Part shown: positions 11 to 13,417 of the stretch, in pieces | Numbering within the stretch: the stretch's first letter is position 1 | Layout: every line of letters begins with the position of its first letter | Source of the DNA: a bacterium | GTDB lineage: Bacteria; Chloroflexota; Dormibacteria; UBA8260; Bog-877 | NCBI GenBank assembly: GCA_021791455.1 | Contig: JAJYWM010000411.1 | Location: forward strand, 7,086 to 20,502 | Length of the DNA: 13,417 bases | Reading direction: 5' to 3' | Notes under the pieces: generated by a model | Seen by the model: only the letters and a program-made list of their open reading frames with translations | Told to the model about the DNA's origin: nothing | Databases searched by the model: none | Program-made: the position numbers and the translations under genes

Positions 11-1132
11 ATGACCCGCCGAGGTCACGGTGAGGGCTCGATCTACCGGCGGCAGGATGGCCGCTGGGCAGCAGCTATCACACTGCCAAACGGACGGCGA
101 CAAGCCTTTTACGGCCGATCTCGTGCAGAAGTCGCCGCCAAGCTCAGCTCGGCCATGAAGGCTCGGGATGCGGGTAGGAGCCTGCCATCCGGCAGGGAGA
201 CGGTCGCCCACTTCCTGGAACGCTGGCTCGATGTGGTGAAACCTCAGCTCCGGGAGCGAACGTGGCGACGGTATGAGCAGCTGGTGCGTAATCAAGTCGT
301 CGAAGAACTGGGCAGTCGCCGACTCTCATCACTCCAAGCACCTGACCTCCAAGCCCTCTACTCCCACTTGTTGGGCGGCGGGCTGTCACCCACCACGGTC
401 CGCCACGTGCACATGCTGCTCCACAGGGCACTGGGGCAGGCGGTCAGATGGGGGCTGCTCCCTAGGAACGTTGCCAGCCTGACCGACCCTCCGCGCATGG
501 CCGTGCATGAGATGCAGACCCTCAGCCCAGAGGAGGTCCGCAAGTTCTTGGCAGTTGCTGCAGAGGACCGCCTAGCGGCGCTTTGGCTCCTGGCTGTCAC
601 CACCGGGATGCGGCAGGGTGAGCTGCTGGCTTTGCGCTGGTCCGATCTCGACCTGGATCACGGGGCCCTCCAGGTGACAGGCACCTTGCAGAGGCTCCCG
701 CACCAAGGAATGGTCCGAACCGAGACCAAGACAGCCCGGTCGCGGCGGCGCGTGCTCCTGGGCGAGTCCGCCATCGCCGCTCTGAGACAGCGAAAGGCGG
801 AGCAGGCCGCAGACCGCCTCAGTGCCTCGACCGACTGGCAGAAGACTGACCTGGTGTTCACGAACGCCGTTGGCAAACCGCAGGACCCCTCTGAACTCCT
901 CCGGCTCTTCAAGACACTCCTCGCAGCCGCGGGCTTGCCGCGGATCCGGTTTCATGACCTGCGGCACACAGCCGCGACCCTGATGCTTCGGCACGGCGTC
1001 CATCCGAAGGTCGCGGCGGACATGCTGGGGCACTCTACGGTCGCGATCACCTTGGACCTCTACTCTCACTCGACCGAGCCAATGCATCGTGAGGCAGCCG
1101 ACATCCTGGAGGGTGTCGTCCGGGGCGCCTGA
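11..1132 (+). CDS. Tyrosine recombinase (phage/ICE-type integrase)
   Basis: This 373-residue protein is a site-specific recombinase that would integrate and excise a mobile element. The N-terminus (about residues 5-50, GHGEGSIYRRQDGRW) is the arm-binding AP2-like domain typical of actinobacterial integrases. Residues about 62-155 form the SAM-like core-binding domain and 168-370 the catalytic domain. All catalytic residues are visible: R201 in TGMRQGELLAL, K240, H315 and R318 in FHDLRHTAATL, H341 in GHSTVAI, and nucleophile Y351 in LDLYSHS. The length is normal for the family and nothing is truncated. The ATG at 11 gives the usual family N-terminus, but the ribosome binding site would lie at or beyond the window edge. 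It reads toward the 3' end of the tRNA-Ser gene, which marks it as the integrase of an element inserted there. Which mobile-element class it belongs to cannot be told from this window. Confidence 0.95.
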   Translation: MTRRGHGEGSIYRRQDGRWAAAITLPNGRRQAFYGRSRAEVAAKLSSAMKARDAGRSLPSGRETVAHFLERWLDVVKPQLRERTWRRYEQLVRNQVVEELGSRRLSSLQAPDLQALYSHLLGGGLSPTTVRHVHMLLHRALGQAVRWGLLPRNVASLTDPPRMAVHEMQTLSPEEVRKFLAVAAEDRLAALWLLAVTTGMRQGELLALRWSDLDLDHGALQVTGTLQRLPHQGMVRTETKTARSRRRVLLGESAIAALRQRKAEQAADRLSASTDWQKTDLVFTNAVGKPQDPSELLRLFKTLLAAAGLPRIRFHDLRHTAATLMLRHGVHPKVAADMLGHSTVAITLDLYSHSTEPMHREAADILEGVVRGA

Positions 1133-1215: not shown

Positions 1216-1305
1216 TGGCGGAGGGAGAGGGATTCGAACCCCCGGAAGCGTTGCCGCCTCAGCGGTTTTCAAGACCGCCGCAATCAACCGCTCTGCCATC
1301 CCTCC
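1216..1305 (-). tRNA. tRNA-Ser(UGA)
   Basis: The minus strand folds as a class II tRNA of 90 nt including an encoded CCA. The acceptor stem is GGAGGGA (1299-1305) paired with TCCCTCC (1220-1226), followed by discriminator G (1219) and CCA (1216-1218). The anticodon loop CTTGAAA places anticodon TGA at 1269-1271 between the GGCGGT and ACCGC strands. A long variable arm and the T-arm with loop TTCGAAT are present, as expected for tRNA-Ser, which reads UCA and other UCN codons. The 3' end faces the integrase gene at 11-1132, so this tRNA is the likely integration site, and the intact 3' half would have been restored by the element. It lies on the same strand as serS, downstream of it. Confidence 0.97.
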
Positions 1306-6475: not shown

Positions 6476-7537
6476 TTGACAACTGCCGCCCAGACCAGGA
6501 CCACAAGACCCGGGATCTCTCTGCGCATCGGGACGGTGGAGCTGGACAACCCCATCTTCATCGCTCCGATGGCGGGGATCACCGATCGCCCGTTCCGAGA
6601 TCTCGCCAGGGAGTTGGGCGCCGGCCTGACCTGCACCGAGATGACCGCCGCCGCCGCCGTCGTGAGGGCCCCGGAGGACGCCGTCGAGCGGGTCCTGGAC
6701 CTGCGGGGTGATGAACACCCGGTGGCGGCCCAGTTGGTCGGCTGCGATCCCAAGATGATGGCGGACGCCGCCCAGATCTGCGTCGCCAAGGGCGCGGACA
6801 TCATCGACATCAACCTCGGCTGTCCTGTTTCCAAGGTGGTGCGGCTCGGTTCCGGCGCCGCCCTGGCCCGCGAGATCCGTGCGACCGCGGCAGTGCTGGA
6901 GGCGATGGTGCAGGCGGTGCCGGTGCCGGTCACCGCCAAGATGCGTCTCGGCTGGGACCACCAGAGCATCAACGCACCGGAGCTGAGCCGGGCGCTCGAG
7001 GATGTCGGAGTTCAGGCGGTCACGATCCACGGGAGGACCAGGGCTCAGCGCTATACGGGATTCGCCGACTGGGCCGAGATCGGCAGGGTGAAGGAGGCGG
7101 TCCGAGCGATCCCGGTCCTGGGTTCTGGCGACGTGCGCGACCCGGCCCAGGTGGAGGCCCGGATCCGCCAGGGAGTGGTGGACGGGGTCGTCATCGCCCG
7201 CGGGATGATGGGCGATTGGCACCTTCTGCAGCAGACCGTGAGCCAGCTCCGCCACGGCGACCCTGGGCCGGACCCCAGCTTCGAGGAGAGGGTGCGCTTG
7301 GCGCGCCGTCACTGGCTCTCTGTGGTGGATCACCACGGCGAGCGCCGGGGCGTACGGCTGGCGCGCAAGTACCTGGTCTGGGCCATCAAGGGTTGCAGCG
7401 GCGCCGCGCGCCTGCGGGCCAGAGTGGCGGACCTCTACACCAAGGCCGACTTGGAGGAGCTCTACTTTGAGATCGTGGCCGCCGGCGAGGGTCCCCACGG
7501 CTGGCAGCGGCCCATCTTCGTCAGCGGCGAGGGGTGA
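6476..7537 (+). CDS. dusB: tRNA-dihydrouridine synthase (DUS family)
   Basis: This flavoenzyme reduces specific uridines of tRNA to dihydrouridine. With a TTG start it has 353 residues. The FMN-binding TIM barrel shows IAPMAGITDRPFR, CTEM, QLVGCDP, the catalytic Cys in INLGCPVSKV (about residue 116), KMRLGWD (K155), TIHGRTRAQRYTG (H185) and VLGSGDVRDP followed by VVIARGMMGD. The C-terminal helical tRNA-binding domain covers about 265-350. The start is uncertain. Homologues usually begin near RIGTVEL, i.e. around 6521, where only CTG and ATC codons are available. TTG 6476 is the nearest conventional start, without a clear Shine-Dalgarno. The gene faces away from coaX and is followed 7 bp later by a zinc-ribbon gene. 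The subfamily symbol dusB is the usual bacterial one and less certain than the family. Confidence 0.93.
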   Translation: MTTAAQTRTTRPGISLRIGTVELDNPIFIAPMAGITDRPFRDLARELGAGLTCTEMTAAAAVVRAPEDAVERVLDLRGDEHPVAAQLVGCDPKMMADAAQICVAKGADIIDINLGCPVSKVVRLGSGAALAREIRATAAVLEAMVQAVPVPVTAKMRLGWDHQSINAPELSRALEDVGVQAVTIHGRTRAQRYTGFADWAEIGRVKEAVRAIPVLGSGDVRDPAQVEARIRQGVVDGVVIARGMMGDWHLLQQTVSQLRHGDPGPDPSFEERVRLARRHWLSVVDHHGERRGVRLARKYLVWAIKGCSGAARLRARVADLYTKADLEELYFEIVAAGEGPHGWQRPIFVSGEG

Positions 7538-7544
7538 TGTTGCC

Positions 7545-7931
7545 GTGACCGCTGGAAAGCGGCACCTGGTCTGTCCTTACGGCTGTCAGCCAGGCCGCTT
7601 CGAGCTTATCGGCGGAGCGGTCTTCGTGGATCCCCGCGGCCTCTACCTGAGCCACGAGGAGAGGCTGGCGTCCTTCCGCTGCGAAAGCTGTGGGTCGGTG
7701 GCTGTGGACCTGGCCGAGGCCGCCGCCGCACGCGCCCGTGAGAGTGGATCGGCGGGGCAGCTGACGGTCACCTGCCCCGCCTGCGGCACACGGTTGTTGC
7801 CCCCTTTGGAGATGGACCCTGGATCCCAGCTGGAGTGTCCCAACTGCGGAGCGGTCTTCTCCTTCGAGGAGGGGTCCCAGCACCTCCTGGGCAACTTCAG
7901 CGAGGCGCCGGAGGACCTTTCCGCCCCCTGA
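7545..7931 (+). CDS. Small protein with two zinc ribbons, function unknown
   Basis: The GTG at 7545 gives 128 residues and follows GAGGGG by about 10 nt; it lies 7 bp after the synthase stop codon, so the two are very likely cotranscribed. Eight cysteines fall in four pairs: C10-x3-C14, C46-x2-C49, C77-x2-C80 and C98-x2-C101, which would build two zinc-ribbon sites. The second pair set (CPACG ... CPNCG) is the classic ribbon, the first (CPYGC ... CESC) is atypical. An Ala/Arg-rich helix (about 55-72) links them, and the C-terminus is acidic. No catalytic domain or membrane segment is seen. A nucleic-acid or protein-binding role beside a tRNA-modification enzyme is plausible but is inference only. 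Confidence 0.85.
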   Translation: MTAGKRHLVCPYGCQPGRFELIGGAVFVDPRGLYLSHEERLASFRCESCGSVAVDLAEAAAARARESGSAGQLTVTCPACGTRLLPPLEMDPGSQLECPNCGAVFSFEEGSQHLLGNFSEAPEDLSAP

Positions 7932-8036: not shown

Positions 8037-8633
8037 ATGCCGAAGGTCGGTGAGGAGCACCGGGCCGCCCGGCGCCAGCGACTCATCGACGCCGGCTGGC
8101 GCTGTCTTGCCCACACCGGCTACCGCGACCTCACTGTCGACCAGGTGTGCCGGGAGGCGGCGGTCAGCAAGGGCTCCTTCTACGGCTCCTTCGCTCACAA
8201 GCGGAGCCTGCTGCTGGCGCTGCTGGAAGACGACTCAGCTTCCCTGAGGGCCGCCATGATGGATCTTGAGACCGGGGAGCCCGACCCCAGCCGAAGGTTG
8301 CGCGCGTTCGCCGCCCACATGTTGGCGCGCGCCGAGTCCCCTGAGCATGTGCAGATGCTGGCGGACCTCTGGGCCGCGATGCTGACCGACCCCGCGGTGC
8401 GGGAGACCCTGAGGCACACCATTGCGGAGAGGCGAGCGATCCTGCGCTCCTGGGTGGAGGACGGCATCGCCAGCCACCGGATAACCCCGACTCCCGCAAA
8501 CGCTCTGGCGTCCCTGATGCTGGCGCTGGGGGAGGGGCTCACCCTGCATGCCGGACTCGACGAGGCGGGATTCCGCTGGGAGAACATCCGCCTCACGGTC
8601 GACCTTATCCTGGCCGCGCTCGAACCCTCATGA
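8037..8633 (+). CDS. TetR-family transcriptional regulator, probably leaderless
   Basis: This is a 198-residue ligand-responsive repressor. The N-terminal helix-turn-helix spans about 12-58 (RLIDAGWRCLAHTGYRDLTV, then VCREAAVSKGSFYGSF with the recognition helix around 43-52). The C-terminal helical domain (about 65-195) would bind the ligand and dimerise. The ATG follows the -10 element by 6 nt and has no Shine-Dalgarno, so the message is predicted to be leaderless. Its stop overlaps the start of the downstream ClC gene (ATGA), so both sit in one operon with an operator-like palindrome upstream. Autoregulation and control of the channel gene are inferred. The ligand is unknown. Confidence 0.92.
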   Translation: MPKVGEEHRAARRQRLIDAGWRCLAHTGYRDLTVDQVCREAAVSKGSFYGSFAHKRSLLLALLEDDSASLRAAMMDLETGEPDPSRRLRAFAAHMLARAESPEHVQMLADLWAAMLTDPAVRETLRHTIAERRAILRSWVEDGIASHRITPTPANALASLMLALGEGLTLHAGLDEAGFRWENIRLTVDLILAALEPS

Positions 8634-10957
8634 GACCCGGATGGCGTTCTCTGGTGGCGCGGGTCCGAAGGCGCCCACCAGGTGGGCCACGCCCCGGAGA
8701 CCCCGAGCCAAGAGCGGCCCGGGGATGGCTTCGGGCGGCGGGGCACCTGGCCCGTCGGGTGCGGCACACCCAAAGGTGGACAAGGCGGCACGACCGACCC
8801 GAGCCCACCCCGGTCAGACCTCCGCGCCGTGGTCTGAACAACGCGCGCCTCACCTGGGAGGGACCATTCTTTGAGGCGGGTTGGACCAACTGGCGCATCC
8901 TCGGGAGCCGGCTGGGCGCCCGCATCAGCCGCCTCCCTTACGCCACCAAATGGCTGGTCCTCGGGGCCGCGATCGGAGTGGTGGCTGGCCTCGGCGCCAT
9001 TCTCTTCTACACGGCGCTGCAGGTGGGCACCCACCTATTCCTCAGTGATCTCGCCGGGTACCACATCCCCACCCCCGGAGGCGAGGGCAACGCTCCGGGG
9101 TCCTCGGGGTTCGCGAGACCTTGGGCGATTCCGCTCGTGGTCGGGTTGGGCGGCCTCATCTCCGGCCTGCTCATCTTCACCTGGGCGCCCGAGGCTGAGG
9201 GCCATGGCACTGACGCCGCCATCGAGGCTTTTCATCGCAACCCCCGGGGCATCCGGCTGCGCGCGGTGGCGGTCAAGATTGTCGCTTCCGCAGTCACCAT
9301 AGGCTCAGGAGGGTCAGGGGGCAGGGAGGGGCCGACGGCCCAGATCAGCGCCGGGTTTGGATCGCTCTTGGCCAGGACGCTCGACCTCTCCCCGGACGAT
9401 GGGCGGCTGGCCGTGGCGGTTGGCATCGGGTCAGGCATCGGGGCTATCTTCAGCGCCCCACTGGGAGGGGCCGTGCTGGCGGCCGACATTCTGTATCGAG
9501 ATGACTTTGAGTTCGCGGCCCTCTTCCCTGGTCTGGTCGCCTCGGTGATCGCCTACCTCATATTTGGAGCGGTCGAGGGCTATCGCTCACTCTTCACCGT
9601 GAGTGGTGGATACCACTTCTCGAGCCCGGGCCAGCTTCTGTGGTTCGCCGTGATCGGGATCGCGGCGGGCCTGATCGGGCTCCTGTATGCGAAGGGCTTC
9701 TATCGAGTGGTGGCCCTGAACGCGCGGCTGCCGTTCAGTCGCAAGCTGCGTCCCGCCTTGGGCGGACTTCTGGTGGGCTCGATCGCCCTGGCGCTCCCGG
9801 AGGTGCTGGGCACCGGATACGGCTGGGTCCAGAAGGGATTGGGACCAAGCCTGCTGGCAATCCCGCTCTACGCCGTGCTGCTGCTTCCGTTCGCCAGGAT
9901 CCTGGCCACCTCCCTATCCATCGGCACCGGCGGGTCGGGCGGAGTGTTCGGTCCCGGGATGGTCATCGGCGCGTTCACCGGAGCCGCCGTCTGGAGGGTG
10001 CTGGAGCCGTTCGCTCCCTTCGTGCCCCACGATCCGGCCTCGTTCGTGGTGGTCGGGATGATGGCGTGCTTCGGTGGGATCGCCGGGGCACCCCTGGCGG
10101 TCATGCTGATGGTGGCGGAGATGACCGGGACCATCTCCCTGCTGGTCCCCGCCATGGTCGCGGTCGCCATCGCCACCTTTATCGTGCGCCGCTTCGACGA
10201 CAGCATCTACAGAAGCCAGCTTCGCACCCGCGCCGACTCTCCCGCCCAGAGGCTGCAATTCGGCCTGCCGCTGCTGGGCGGGATCCAGGTGAGCACGGTG
10301 GCCTCGGAGCCGCTGGTAATCGTCAGGGATTCAATGAGGGCGGCGGAGGCTTTACAGCTGCTTCGCTCCCACACGGTGCCCGGGGCCCCGGTCGTGGATG
10401 GGGAGGAAATCTACCTGGGCACGGTGACGGAAGAGGTCATCGCGGGCGCACTCGCCCAGGACGCCTCACCCTCGCTATCGGATTTGGTCGACTTCACCAC
10501 GCCGACGGTCGCCGCCACGGCCCACCTGGACACGGCCCTCGACTCCATCACCCAGGCCGGGGGACATTGGGTGACCGTGACAGATGGTGCGCGGCACGTG
10601 CTCGGTGTGCTCACCTTCGGGGACCTCGTGACCGGCTACCAGCGCGCGCTGTCCAGCAACCTCGGGGTCATGACCCAGGTGAGCGGTCACATCATGAGCC
10701 TGGAGGAGCGCATCGGGGAGGGCTCACCGCTCATCGGCCGACCGCTCCGCGATGTGACCATGCCCTCTGGATGCATCGTGGTGACAGTGCTGCGCGGCAC
10801 GGAGCTGACGTTCGCCACGGCCAGCACGGTGCTGGAGGCCGGCGACGTGGCCAGCGCCCTCGCCTCCCCGGAGGAGGCGGAACGCATGCGCCAGCTGATG
10901 CGCGGTGCTGAGGGACCGATCAACCCCTCGGTGGAACGCGGCAGCCAACTCATGTGA
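8630..10957 (+). CDS. ClC-type anion channel/transporter with CBS pair and TrkA_C-like domain
   Basis: This 775-residue membrane protein would move chloride or a related anion. After a roughly 105-residue Arg/Pro-rich cytoplasmic tail, the ClC membrane domain spans about 107-520. Its signatures are GHGTD (191-195, in place of GSGIP), GREGP with gating Glu E233 (231-235), GVFGP (438-442), and a Tyr at 527 in the position of the central pore Tyr. Where ClC-ec1 has the E202-E203 pair, with E203 relaying protons, this protein has D286-I287, which fits a channel or non-proton-coupled transporter. Two CBS domains (about 555-610 and 618-672) and a TrkA_C/RCK_C-like domain (about 690-755) follow and probably sense nucleotides or ligands. 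The ATG overlaps the tetR stop. The start could be later because the basic tail is poorly conserved in character, but no better ribosome binding site is seen in frame. Confidence 0.93.
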   Translation: MRPGWRSLVARVRRRPPGGPRPGDPEPRAARGWLRAAGHLARRVRHTQRWTRRHDRPEPTPVRPPRRGLNNARLTWEGPFFEAGWTNWRILGSRLGARISRLPYATKWLVLGAAIGVVAGLGAILFYTALQVGTHLFLSDLAGYHIPTPGGEGNAPGSSGFARPWAIPLVVGLGGLISGLLIFTWAPEAEGHGTDAAIEAFHRNPRGIRLRAVAVKIVASAVTIGSGGSGGREGPTAQISAGFGSLLARTLDLSPDDGRLAVAVGIGSGIGAIFSAPLGGAVLAADILYRDDFEFAALFPGLVASVIAYLIFGAVEGYRSLFTVSGGYHFSSPGQLLWFAVIGIAAGLIGLLYAKGFYRVVALNARLPFSRKLRPALGGLLVGSIALALPEVLGTGYGWVQKGLGPSLLAIPLYAVLLLPFARILATSLSIGTGGSGGVFGPGMVIGAFTGAAVWRVLEPFAPFVPHDPASFVVVGMMACFGGIAGAPLAVMLMVAEMTGTISLLVPAMVAVAIATFIVRRFDDSIYRSQLRTRADSPAQRLQFGLPLLGGIQVSTVASEPLVIVRDSMRAAEALQLLRSHTVPGAPVVDGEEIYLGTVTEEVIAGALAQDASPSLSDLVDFTTPTVAATAHLDTALDSITQAGGHWVTVTDGARHVLGVLTFGDLVTGYQRALSSNLGVMTQVSGHIMSLEERIGEGSPLIGRPLRDVTMPSGCIVVTVLRGTELTFATASTVLEAGDVASALASPEEAERMRQLMRGAEGPINPSVERGSQLM

Positions 10958-11001: not shown

Positions 11002-13050
11002 CTAGCGGGGCTCCTCAGCGACCGGGCCAGGTACGGCGCTGGTCAGTGTCCGCTCCACTTCGGAGGCAAGCTCCGGGTTGGCGTGAACGGGACATCTGGC
11101 GGCGGCGGTACCGGCGTCGGCGGGGGTGGCGGCCAGCGCTTCAACGACCGCCGCCTCCAGCTGGGGGTTGGCATGCACCGGGCATCCACCTCGCGTCGCA
11201 TTCCCTTCCGACTCACCATCTGAGGCGGCTGGCGCCACGAATCCAGGCGTGGTGCCCTCCTCTCGGGGACGCAGGCGGGCGACGGTGGGAGAGGCCTCCC
11301 TGGGCACGTAGCGCCCTCCAGTGCCCCCAGCGGCATATGTCAGGAGCGCCCGGTCAACATCGTCACCCTCCTGGAAGGATTCGTCGAATCCATTTTGGTC
11401 GCGCGGCTGGCGGTCCGGGTCGAGGTCGTCCTGCAACGGTGTGCGGTGGGGCTGAGCGTTGGCGGACCGGCCCAACTCCGGTTCGATCAGGGGACCCGCG
11501 ACCTGCAGGGTGACCACGGTCAGGCGGCGCATCCTGGCGACCTTCTCGACCTTCGCCTTGATCCGGCGGCGCAGATACCCGGCTGGCATTTCATGGAGAA
11601 GGTTTCGGGCCTCGGTCGACCATCCGATCTTGCGGTTGTCGAAGGTGAGCTCCTCGGTCACCTCGCCCTCGGACTCGGCCTCCCGCATCAGGGTCTCGTG
11701 GTCCACCTGGGAGAAGCCGTCCTGGGTTCCCCCGCAGACCGGGCAGGAGACCGGACGCACTCCGTGAGCTGTGTAACCGCACTCGCGGCAGATGTGCACC
11801 TCGCGCTCGTTCTTGACCACCGCGGCAGCCTCTCGCTGGATGCCAATGGCCGAGGACGCCTCGGGAGGCAGGATGTCGCCCAAAGCTGCGGTCACCAAAT
11901 CCTGGGAGATTATGGAGTGCCCCCGCTCCATCGACCAGCGCAGCACAGCGGTCCTGGCCAATCCCTGGGCCGAGCATGGGATCCTCTCCAGCACCTCGTT
12001 CGCCTCCGGGGTCCAGACCACGGACGCCGCTCCCTGGACGTCGATGGGCGGCACATAGGTGCGGGAGGAGAGCATCACACTGCAGGGGGCAAGTCGCAGC
12101 AGGTTCTCACTGTTGCCGCCGATGTCCATGCCCTGGTCCGAGTGCACCCCGATCCGGCCGCAGACGAGCAGGGACGCGTCCTTCTCCCGCACGTAGCGCA
12201 GAACCTGCTCGAAGGCCTTGCCATCCAGGAGGGTGATGGGCAGGTCGTAGCCCTCGGCACGCGCCACCTCCTTGGCCACCTTCAGATGCGACGAGTAGAT
12301 CATCGCCAGACCGGTGTCGATGATCTCCTCATGCAGGGCCTCCTGCTCCTTGAAGCGGAAGACCTTGCTCGCCTTCTCCGAGAGGACTCCCACGATGCCG
12401 TTGAACAGGACGTAGTGCAGGTACGGGTCATAGACGGACACGGCCTCGACGGGGAGGTCCAGGGCTCGCCCCATCTCCAGCGCCGAGCGCAGACCGGCGA
12501 AGGACTGGGGAGAGCCGTCTATGGCGACTACGATTGGTCCGTCCAGCGTCTGCCGCCCCTCGCGGTGGCGGACCACGATGGTGTCGCGGTGGGCCCGCCG
12601 AACCACGCGATCCACACAGGTCCCGATCTGGGTCTCCTTGACCTGCCCCAGCCCGCACGCCCCCATGATCACCAGGTCGTAGTCCGACTCCTCGATGTCC
12701 TTGACCAGCACCTCCCAGTTCTTCCCGTCGAAGGTCTTGGGGGTGAACGGCACGCCCTCCTGCAGGCAGAGCCTCTGCGTCTCCTCAAGGTAGGAATCTG
12801 AAATCAGCCCCAGCCCGGTGGTGATCAGGCTGTCGTGGATCTTGCGCTGACGCTCCAGCTCAACCTCGTCCTGATACTCCTCAGGCAGGGTGTACTCCAT
12901 CTGCTTGAAGCGGTAGTCGTGCAGCCTTGCGGCGTACACGTGGCTGCCCACGAGCTCAGCTCCGCTCGCCTTGGCCAGACGGATTCCGAACTCGGAGGCG
13001 GCGGTGGAATGATCGGAATTGTCCAGCGGCAGATAGATCTTGCGGTACAT
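11002..13050 (-). CDS. Tandem UspA / PCP_red-like / rubredoxin-like ribbon fusion protein
   Basis: This 682-residue cytoplasmic protein has no signal peptide or membrane segment. Residues 1-162 are a UspA domain with the ATP-binding pattern G130-x2-G133-x9-G143-T144. Residues 171-330 are a second UspA domain whose pattern ends G311-G312 instead of G-S/T. Residues 345-391 (VWTPEANEVLERIP ... GHSIISQDLVTAA) resemble the PCP_red helical domain known from protochlorophyllide reductase subunit B. Residues 419-441 are a four-Cys ribbon (CRECGYTAHG ... CPVCGG) of the rubredoxin/rubrerythrin type. Residues 476-515 (IGWSTEARNLLHEMPAGYLRR) are a second PCP_red-like segment. The tail after 520 is polar and disordered and ends with two CPVHANP repeats (623-629, 653-659). 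The start ATG has only a weak GGGA upstream. It lies 59 bp after argH. Role unknown; a nucleotide-binding stress sensor with redox or metal input is inferred. Confidence 0.88.
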   Translation of the reverse strand: MYRKIYLPLDNSDHSTAASEFGIRLAKASGAELVGSHVYAARLHDYRFKQMEYTLPEEYQDEVELERQRKIHDSLITTGLGLISDSYLEETQRLCLQEGVPFTPKTFDGKNWEVLVKDIEESDYDLVIMGACGLGQVKETQIGTCVDRVVRRAHRDTIVVRHREGRQTLDGPIVVAIDGSPQSFAGLRSALEMGRALDLPVEAVSVYDPYLHYVLFNGIVGVLSEKASKVFRFKEQEALHEEIIDTGLAMIYSSHLKVAKEVARAEGYDLPITLLDGKAFEQVLRYVREKDASLLVCGRIGVHSDQGMDIGGNSENLLRLAPCSVMLSSRTYVPPIDVQGAASVVWTPEANEVLERIPCSAQGLARTAVLRWSMERGHSIISQDLVTAALGDILPPEASSAIGIQREAAAVVKNEREVHICRECGYTAHGVRPVSCPVCGGTQDGFSQVDHETLMREAESEGEVTEELTFDNRKIGWSTEARNLLHEMPAGYLRRRIKAKVEKVARMRRLTVVTLQVAGPLIEPELGRSANAQPHRTPLQDDLDPDRQPRDQNGFDESFQEGDDVDRALLTYAAGGTGGRYVPREASPTVARLRPREEGTTPGFVAPAASDGESEGNATRGGCPVHANPQLEAAVVEALAATPADAGTAAARCPVHANPELASEVERTLTSAVPGPVAEEPR

Positions 13051-13109: not shown

Positions 13110-13417
13110 TCAGATGCGGGGAGGGGATCCCCCGAGCTGGTCCTGTTGCTCAAGCCACCGTCTCGTCGCCGCCAGCCGACGGCCGCAGCTTCGCAGCGCC
13201 CGGGATGTGGCCCTTGGGCCCGGCGCCCCTACCTGCTCGCGCCGCGCCAGGGACGCGCGCGCGCTGAAAAGGTCTTGCTGGCAAGGGTCGCAGGGCAGCC
13301 CGAGCTCCTGCCAGGAGGAGTGCAGCCAGGAGTCCAGGGGCAGGCCCACCTCTCGGGATCGGTGGACCGCCAGGCCGACCATCTCATGGGCCTGCCGGAA
13401 CGGCATCCCCGATGCCA
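13110..13417 (-). CDS. argH: Argininosuccinate lyase, C-terminal part (cut by window edge)
   Basis: The visible 101 or so codons begin inside the gene at the right window edge. They start with ASGMPFRQAHEMVG, the hallmark of the C-terminal domain (ASL_C2) of argininosuccinate lyase, which splits argininosuccinate into arginine and fumarate in the last step of arginine synthesis. The rest matches that domain in character: helices, then a Pro/Gly-containing segment (VGAPGPRATSRALR) where relatives have the Gly-rich turn before the last helix. Catalytic residues lie outside the window. The stop is TGA at 13110-13112. An internal ATG at 13406 exists but is not the start. The gene reads toward the Usp-fusion gene on the same strand. 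Confidence 0.85.
   Translation of the reverse strand, partial: ASGMPFRQAHEMVGLAVHRSREVGLPLDSWLHSSWQELGLPCDPCQQDLFSARASLARREQVGAPGPRATSRALRSCGRRLAATRRWLEQQDQLGGSPPRI

Follow-up and report, generated by a model that had tools for sequence, protein, structure and literature searches.

A Usp-PCP_red-ribbon protein family linked to oxidase-type genes, with a possible role in handling haem for terminal oxidases

The protein and its domain architecture

The window analysed here is a stretch of 13,417 nucleotides from a member of the Dormibacteria (Chloroflexota; contig JAJYWM010000411.1 of assembly GCA_021791455.1), and at 11002..13050 its minus strand encodes a protein in which two universal stress protein (Usp) domains are followed by a four-cysteine ribbon set between two PCP_red domains. 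We report that this protein is a member of a large, multi-phylum family with a strong link to oxidase-type genes, and we tentatively propose that it may carry, sense or protect haem or a similar tetrapyrrole in the service of terminal oxidases. The features of the protein, and the basis on which each was assigned, are as follows.

11002..13050, minus strand: Usp-Usp-PCP_red-ribbon-PCP_red protein, 682 residues plus stop codon (open reading frame and Pfam)
12568..13050, minus strand: Usp domain 1, residues 1-161 (Pfam; fold match)
12619..12663, minus strand: putative ATP motif G-2x-G-9x-G-S/T of Usp 1, G130, G133, G143 and T144 (120-member alignment)
12790..12921, minus strand: helical insert of Usp 1, residues 44-87, HDYRFKQMExTLPExY... 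(conservation; helices in model)
12064..12540, minus strand: Usp domain 2, about residues 171-329 (Pfam; fold match)
12115..12159, minus strand: putative ATP motif of Usp 2, G298, G301 and G311, position 312 being Gly (120-member alignment)
12286..12432, minus strand: helical insert of Usp 2, residues 207-255, YDPYLHY...KEQExLHEEIIDTGLA (conservation; model)
11866..12033, minus strand: PCP_red 1, about residues 340-395 (Pfam, family profile, fold match)
11707..11799, minus strand: rubredoxin-like ribbon, residues 418-448, C421, C424, C436 and C439 (family profile; conserved Cys)
11500..11622, minus strand: PCP_red 2, residues 477-517 (Pfam, family profile)
11164..11184, minus strand: tail motif CPVHANP, first copy, residues 623-629 (sequence)
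11074..11094, minus strand: tail motif CPVHANP, second copy, residues 653-659 (sequence)

A preliminary description made from the sequence had recognized two nucleotide-binding-type Usp domains, two PCP_red segments and, between the latter, a rubredoxin-like ribbon, and this domain order is confirmed. The Usp model (PF00582) matches in two stretches, as a tandem Usp protein should (1.4e-36; 126.6 bits against a cut-off of 24), and PCP_red (PF08369) also matches in two stretches (56.7 bits for the whole protein against a cut-off of 32.5), each of which separately matches a PCP_red structure in a family-profile search. The ribbon (RUBY_RBDX) has the CxxC...CxxC pattern and matches rubrerythrin at 3.6e-8 by family profile; with the single sequence the Pfam score is 19 bits, under the cut-off of 26.5. 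From its conserved motifs the tandem Usp is predicted to bind ATP, and the ribbon is a putative metal site at which iron and zinc are indistinguishable from the sequence. In the structure model, predicted helices 41-54 and 62-97 span the Usp 1 insert. TIGR01278 gave 32.9 bits against a cut-off of 490.35 with an alignment confined to the C-terminal domain, and the idea of a BchB homologue was dropped because only the C-terminal domain of BchB matches. A fold search with the C-terminal model showed that the PCP_red fold resembles generic helical lid domains, and the matches of that model to RuvB and other AAA+ proteins were read as a common small helical fold.

A large family with highly conserved Usp inserts

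The protein search scored 7999 candidates, 5572 of them at E 1e-3, and both Pfam domains are present in 119 of the 120 matches listed, the remaining one being a partial sequence with Usp only. A scan of genome contigs found 149 relatives, and the locus counts given below refer to the best 80 of these 149. Their record titles include Dormiibacterota, Chloroflexi, plain 'bacterium', Rhodothermales and other Bacteroidota, Rokubacteria, Methylomirabilota, Entotheonella, Tectomicrobia and a few others. The fusion had been called unusual at the outset; the arrangement is real, but it is not a one-off, and in Methanomicrobiaceae a combination of Usp with 'LI-POR_suB-like_C' has been described on the basis of automatic annotation (PMC12159084).

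Residue conservation was taken from an alignment of 120 family members. The three Gly of the Usp 1 motif and the four Cys of the ribbon are found in 120/120, position 144 is Ser or Thr in 119/120, and the Gly of the Usp 2 motif are likewise invariant, with position 312 being Gly in the window protein and Ser in 100/120. The two Usp inserts exceed all other segments measured: mean conservation is 0.92 in both, with 24 of 44 columns invariant in the first (0.70 for the rest of Usp 1) and 27 of 49 in the second (0.76 for the rest of Usp 2), while PCP_red and the ribbon average 0.61-0.69. Both inserts are long, helical and His/Glu-rich, with many invariant His, Asp, Glu and Tyr, and they could form a metal, nucleotide or partner site.

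Gene neighbourhoods in other lineages

Neighbour clusters were named by Pfam on one representative each, and loci were grouped by record title and similarity; as the loci are pieces of contigs and the genes are simple reading frames, absences partly reflect contig ends. Many apparently conserved clusters (e.g., clusters 1, 2, and 4) were ignored, as by eye they look like antisense frames of high-GC genes. The preliminary description had proposed listing the gene neighbours of proteins with this architecture, and such a list yields oxidase, haem-type radical SAM and Mrp partners in other phyla and none at the loci of the window's own clade, where radical SAM, Mrp, CydA-like, small-partner and COX neighbours are lacking in all 16. 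The 16 Rhodothermales-type loci have a radical SAM protein with its own PCP_red domain (15), Mrp (16), a CydA-like protein (14), a small partner of ribbon-CPF-PCP_red architecture (14) and COX1 (3). Among the 33 Rokubacteria/Methylomirabilota loci the counts are 26 for the radical SAM protein with PCP_red, 25 for Mrp, 23 for COX1, 27 for COX3, 24 for COX15-CtaA and 24 for a UbiA-type protein read as CtaB, with one small partner and no CydA-like gene. The four Tectomicrobia/Entotheonella-type loci have Mrp (4), the small partner (4) and COX3 (3), and a second dormibacterial clade (n = 8) has the CydA-like protein at all eight and a double-PCP_red protein at five. The single loci are L021, L028 and L048, of which L028 has none of these neighbours.

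The Rhodothermales locus L030 illustrates the arrangement. Its order is CydA-like, three cytochrome c proteins, radical SAM, a small Pfam-less protein, the Usp protein, Mrp and the ribbon-CPF-PCP_red protein, and farther away lie a protein with a CDVHSW motif and a gene of the COX1 cluster. The closest models for the radical SAM proteins of L030 and of L074 (Rokubacteria) are those of the haem-synthesis enzymes NirJ2 (339 and 302 bits, respectively) and AhbD (302 and 298 bits), none of the scores reaching the 500-bit cut-offs, and their own PCP_red domains match at 2.5e-9 and 4.5e-13. The Mrp protein of L030 is a NUBPL-type P-loop protein (2.3e-70) that falls under the MrpORP cut-off. The CydA-like partner is divergent, its match to the 418-position Pfam model being limited to about positions 5-240, and its genes lie near cytochrome c genes or near Rieske and cytochrome b genes. 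One cytochrome c protein in the Rhodothermales CydA-like cassette (L030, 4483-6144, plus strand) has a haem b domain of the ethylbenzene-dehydrogenase/DMSO-reductase type.

These neighbours could also be taken to synthesize a modified haem for the oxidases to which they are linked; in such an enzyme system the radical SAM protein would be the catalyst, Mrp would supply iron-sulfur clusters and the Usp protein would present the substrate. The frequency of the NirJ2/AhbD-like protein, and of Mrp, beside the gene in the two largest groups outside the dormibacterial clades fits such a system, as NirJ and AhbD act on haem d1 and haem precursors (PMC7242693). We consider it quite improbable, as in none of the 12 window-clade genomes was a radical SAM protein with PCP_red seen, every PCP_red match lying either in the Usp frame or in a second frame of 240-299 amino acids.

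Co-occurrence with oxidase genes

The link to oxidase-type genes was also seen in whole genomes. In a sample of 100 genomes from the class of L030, the same 16, and no others, carry the Usp, the radical SAM and the CydA-like gene; in these 16 the other two matches start 1.8-4.2 kb and 6.6-8.7 kb away from that of Usp, on one contig. In the dormibacterial class, that of the genome of locus L024 (110 genomes, 12 of them from the window's clade; Usp-PCP at E 1e-40 and CydA-like at E 1e-20), 48 genomes have both genes, one has Usp only, four have CydA-like only and 57 have neither (Fisher 3e-25, kinship not corrected for). The two genes lie on one contig in 25 of the 48 genomes and on different contigs in 23, including all 12 from the window's clade; these contigs are fragments and hence do not give the true distance. 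There the CydA-like gene stands first in an operon of its own, together with genes for Rieske and cytochrome b proteins (L113 by Pfam; L114-L116 by reading), and a CydA-like gene is presumably also present in the window's own genome, as judged from its relatives. A second CydA-like frame in the dormibacterial operon has no Pfam match in its L024 and L115 versions, and its assignment rests on 26-35% protein matches in some genomes. An association with haem-copper oxidases within this class was dropped after a control in which COX1 was present in 42/49 Usp-positive and 55/61 Usp-negative genomes, a control of low power because nearly all of the genomes carry COX1.

Co-occurrence of this kind might also arise if the protein were a general stress protein or scaffold, its PCP_red domains a mere helical repeat for protein-protein contacts and its gene a passenger with respiration genes in the same ancestral or mobile cassette. 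The all-or-none cassette of the Rhodothermales class sample agrees with this, as does the place of the window gene among argH, a CLC channel and housekeeping genes. The window's clade, however, keeps both the Usp-PCP and the CydA-like gene in 12/12 genomes although they are on different contigs, and the Usp inserts are conserved to an extreme degree; we regard this explanation as improbable.

Second PCP_red proteins and CP motifs

At E 1e-3, PCP_red matches four times in every one of the 12 window-clade genomes, twice in the Usp frame and twice in the frame of 240-299 amino acids. The latter protein starts with motifs of the form CPFP, CPYP or CPVP in 5/5 window-clade genomes viewed, and it matches the C-terminal part of Usp-family members of 838-880 amino acids (P0110 against the L100 version, 53% over 178 residues; P0039 against the L024 version, 50% over 180). 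Some relatives have the Usp protein and the second PCP_red protein as a single fusion, an argument for their acting together. Among the Rokubacteria/Methylomirabilota, the genomes G029 and G030 have a PCP_red frame of 169 or 206 amino acids on another contig. Further PCP_red matches were seen away from the Usp gene in the genomes G019 (C23), G021 (C72), G023 (C3), G026 (C1) and G031 (C56), in frames of 431-537 amino acids that could be radical SAM or BchB-like proteins.

We defined a CP motif as Cys-Pro with V, F, I, L, M, W, Y or A as the next residue; in Irr such a motif, GCPWHD, is a haem-binding site (PMC11442138). The Usp-PCP tails of 196 aligned members contain 164 CP motifs among 237 tail Cys, compared with 8.0 by shuffling, and 110 of the 196 proteins have them; with one tail per 70% cluster, eight motifs remain, in 4 of 17 tails, compared with 0.5 expected. 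By group, they are found at 12/16 loci of the window's clade (three of the other four being cut by contig ends), 6/8 of the second dormibacterial clade, 0/16 of the Rhodothermales type and 0/40 of the others. In the small partner the CPF motif is present in 21/21 copies at the loci, and a CP-hydrophobic motif is present in 120/120 listed homologues (the best 120 of 1422; shuffle average 14.5/120) and in 14/14 at 60% identity. This partner lies near the Usp gene at most Rhodothermales-type and all four Tectomicrobia/Entotheonella-type loci and at only 1/33 Rokubacteria/Methylomirabilota loci. Rhodocaloribacter litoris, which we take to be in culture, is a named relative with both the Usp protein (P0304) and the small partner (P0193). 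The CP motifs of the window protein's tail and of the small partner resemble haem-regulatory motifs, a suggestive likeness that makes them candidate haem ligands.

The main rival explanation is a redox and energy-sensing regulator in which the Usp pair would read ATP, the ribbon would read redox state or metal and the PCP_red domains would dock on an oxidase or its assembly proteins, with no tetrapyrrole involved. That the ribbon Cys and the ATP-motif Gly are invariant, yet the tail CP motifs are absent from 56/56 Rhodothermales-type and remaining loci, speaks for such a regulator, as does the likeness of the PCP_red fold to helical lids, and the oxidase linkage is equally well accounted for. 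What it leaves unexplained is why PCP_red recurs together with CP motifs in two other proteins and why it is joined to a haem-type radical SAM protein, and we regard it as somewhat unlikely. The preliminary description had suggested ATP sensing combined with a redox or metal switch, which is possible; the genomic data favour a more specific link, with terminal oxidases and with haem or tetrapyrrole chemistry.

Surroundings of the gene in the window

As had been remarked beforehand, no photosynthesis gene lies nearby: none is among the window genes identified, the whole genomes not having been searched for BchN or the BchB core, and a photosynthesis island was accordingly dropped. Just upstream of the Usp gene is the C-terminal part of argininosuccinate lyase (13110-13415, minus strand), and an argH homologue holds this position in 12 of the 80 loci, all from the window's clade. 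On the other side, between the Usp gene and a dihydrouridine synthase gene, are genes for a TetR regulator and for a CLC chloride channel that contains CBS and TrkA_C domains (8037-10957, plus strand); in the relatives L002, L009 and L016 the corresponding gap is too short for these two genes, and hence they look like an insertion. The dihydrouridine synthase gene is followed by one for a small protein (7467-7931, plus strand) that has several CxxC pairs and matches zinc ribbons weakly. At the start of the window, a phage-type integrase (11-1132, plus strand; Phage_integrase 4.2e-30) adjoins a tRNA-Ser (TGA; 1216-1305, minus strand) close to serS, and this is likely to be an element integrated at the tRNA.

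Proposed function

We propose, as a possibility somewhat short of probable, that the Usp-PCP_red-ribbon protein binds ATP and, in the service of terminal oxidases, carries, senses or protects haem or a similar tetrapyrrole. ATP would be bound by the tandem Usp, and this binding would set the state of the protein. The two PCP_red domains around the ribbon would form a module that can accommodate a tetrapyrrole or another redox cofactor, and to this module the C-terminal tail would add its two CP-type, haem-regulatory-like motifs. The motifs and the type of partner together lend moderate support to haem binding. The clients would be terminal respiratory oxidases, and in the protein's own class the candidate is the CydA-like protein whose gene accompanies those for Rieske and cytochrome b proteins. 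Most likely, haem would be held, delivered or protected during oxidase assembly or stress, or the haem or redox state reported; any action on the oxidase, and its direction, are part of this proposal.

More broadly, PCP_red might be a module of general use in handling tetrapyrroles beyond chlorophyll synthesis, and the Usp-PCP_red-ribbon, ribbon-CPF-PCP_red, double-PCP_red and radical SAM-PCP_red proteins might together be an undescribed system, present in several phyla, for haem delivery or modification in bd-like and haem-copper terminal oxidases, with the ATP-binding Usp domains as a stress-responsive switch. We think this unlikely as a whole. The proposed role in the service of oxidases, if right, would say what a large family known by no other name than 'universal stress protein' does, show where a chlorophyll-enzyme domain is at work outside photosynthesis and provide candidate haem-assembly or protection factors for CydA-like oxidases.

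Comparison with known systems

The joining of Usp to a C-terminal domain of the dark-operative protochlorophyllide oxidoreductase (DPOR) type has already been noted, and for the wider family with its ribbon, oxidase link and CP-motif partners our searches found no paper, most subscription journals lying outside them. The same searches turned up no characterized system with this domain arrangement, in line with what the preliminary description had supposed. The Methanomicrobiaceae protein has the same DPOR-type domain joined to Usp, and the passage of that paper describing it mentions no ribbon, duplication or oxidase link (PMC12159084). Compared with the tandem-type Usp proteins TTHA0350, Rv2623 and UspE, the window protein adds about 350 C-terminal residues and has highly conserved inserts with invariant His, Asp and Glu in both Usp domains, a comparison with these three only, as fold searches do not bear on whether other proteins share the inserts. 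The PCP_red domain found at the C-terminus of BchB/ChlB (2kru, 2xdq, 3aek) is duplicated in the window protein, which has no match to the nitrogenase-like BchB core. Its ribbon, CxxCG...CPxCG, resembles the rubredoxin-like domain of rubrerythrin and nigerythrin, but it lies between two PCP_red domains and there is no diiron domain by Pfam.

For the partner genes, the radical SAM proteins are similar to NirJ and AhbD and differ from them in falling under the model cut-offs and in having a PCP_red domain of their own. The CydA-like partners are, like the OR-N/CydAA' bd-like oxidases (PMC10839748, PMC12342949), divergent and encoded near cytochrome c or Rieske/cytochrome b genes, and they may belong to the OR-N family, which has been called 'yet uncharacterized' (PMC10839748). 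The nxr cluster of Kuenenia contains both a uspA gene (kustd1706), which may or may not belong to the present family, and a cydA-like gene (kustd1712; PMC6423088).
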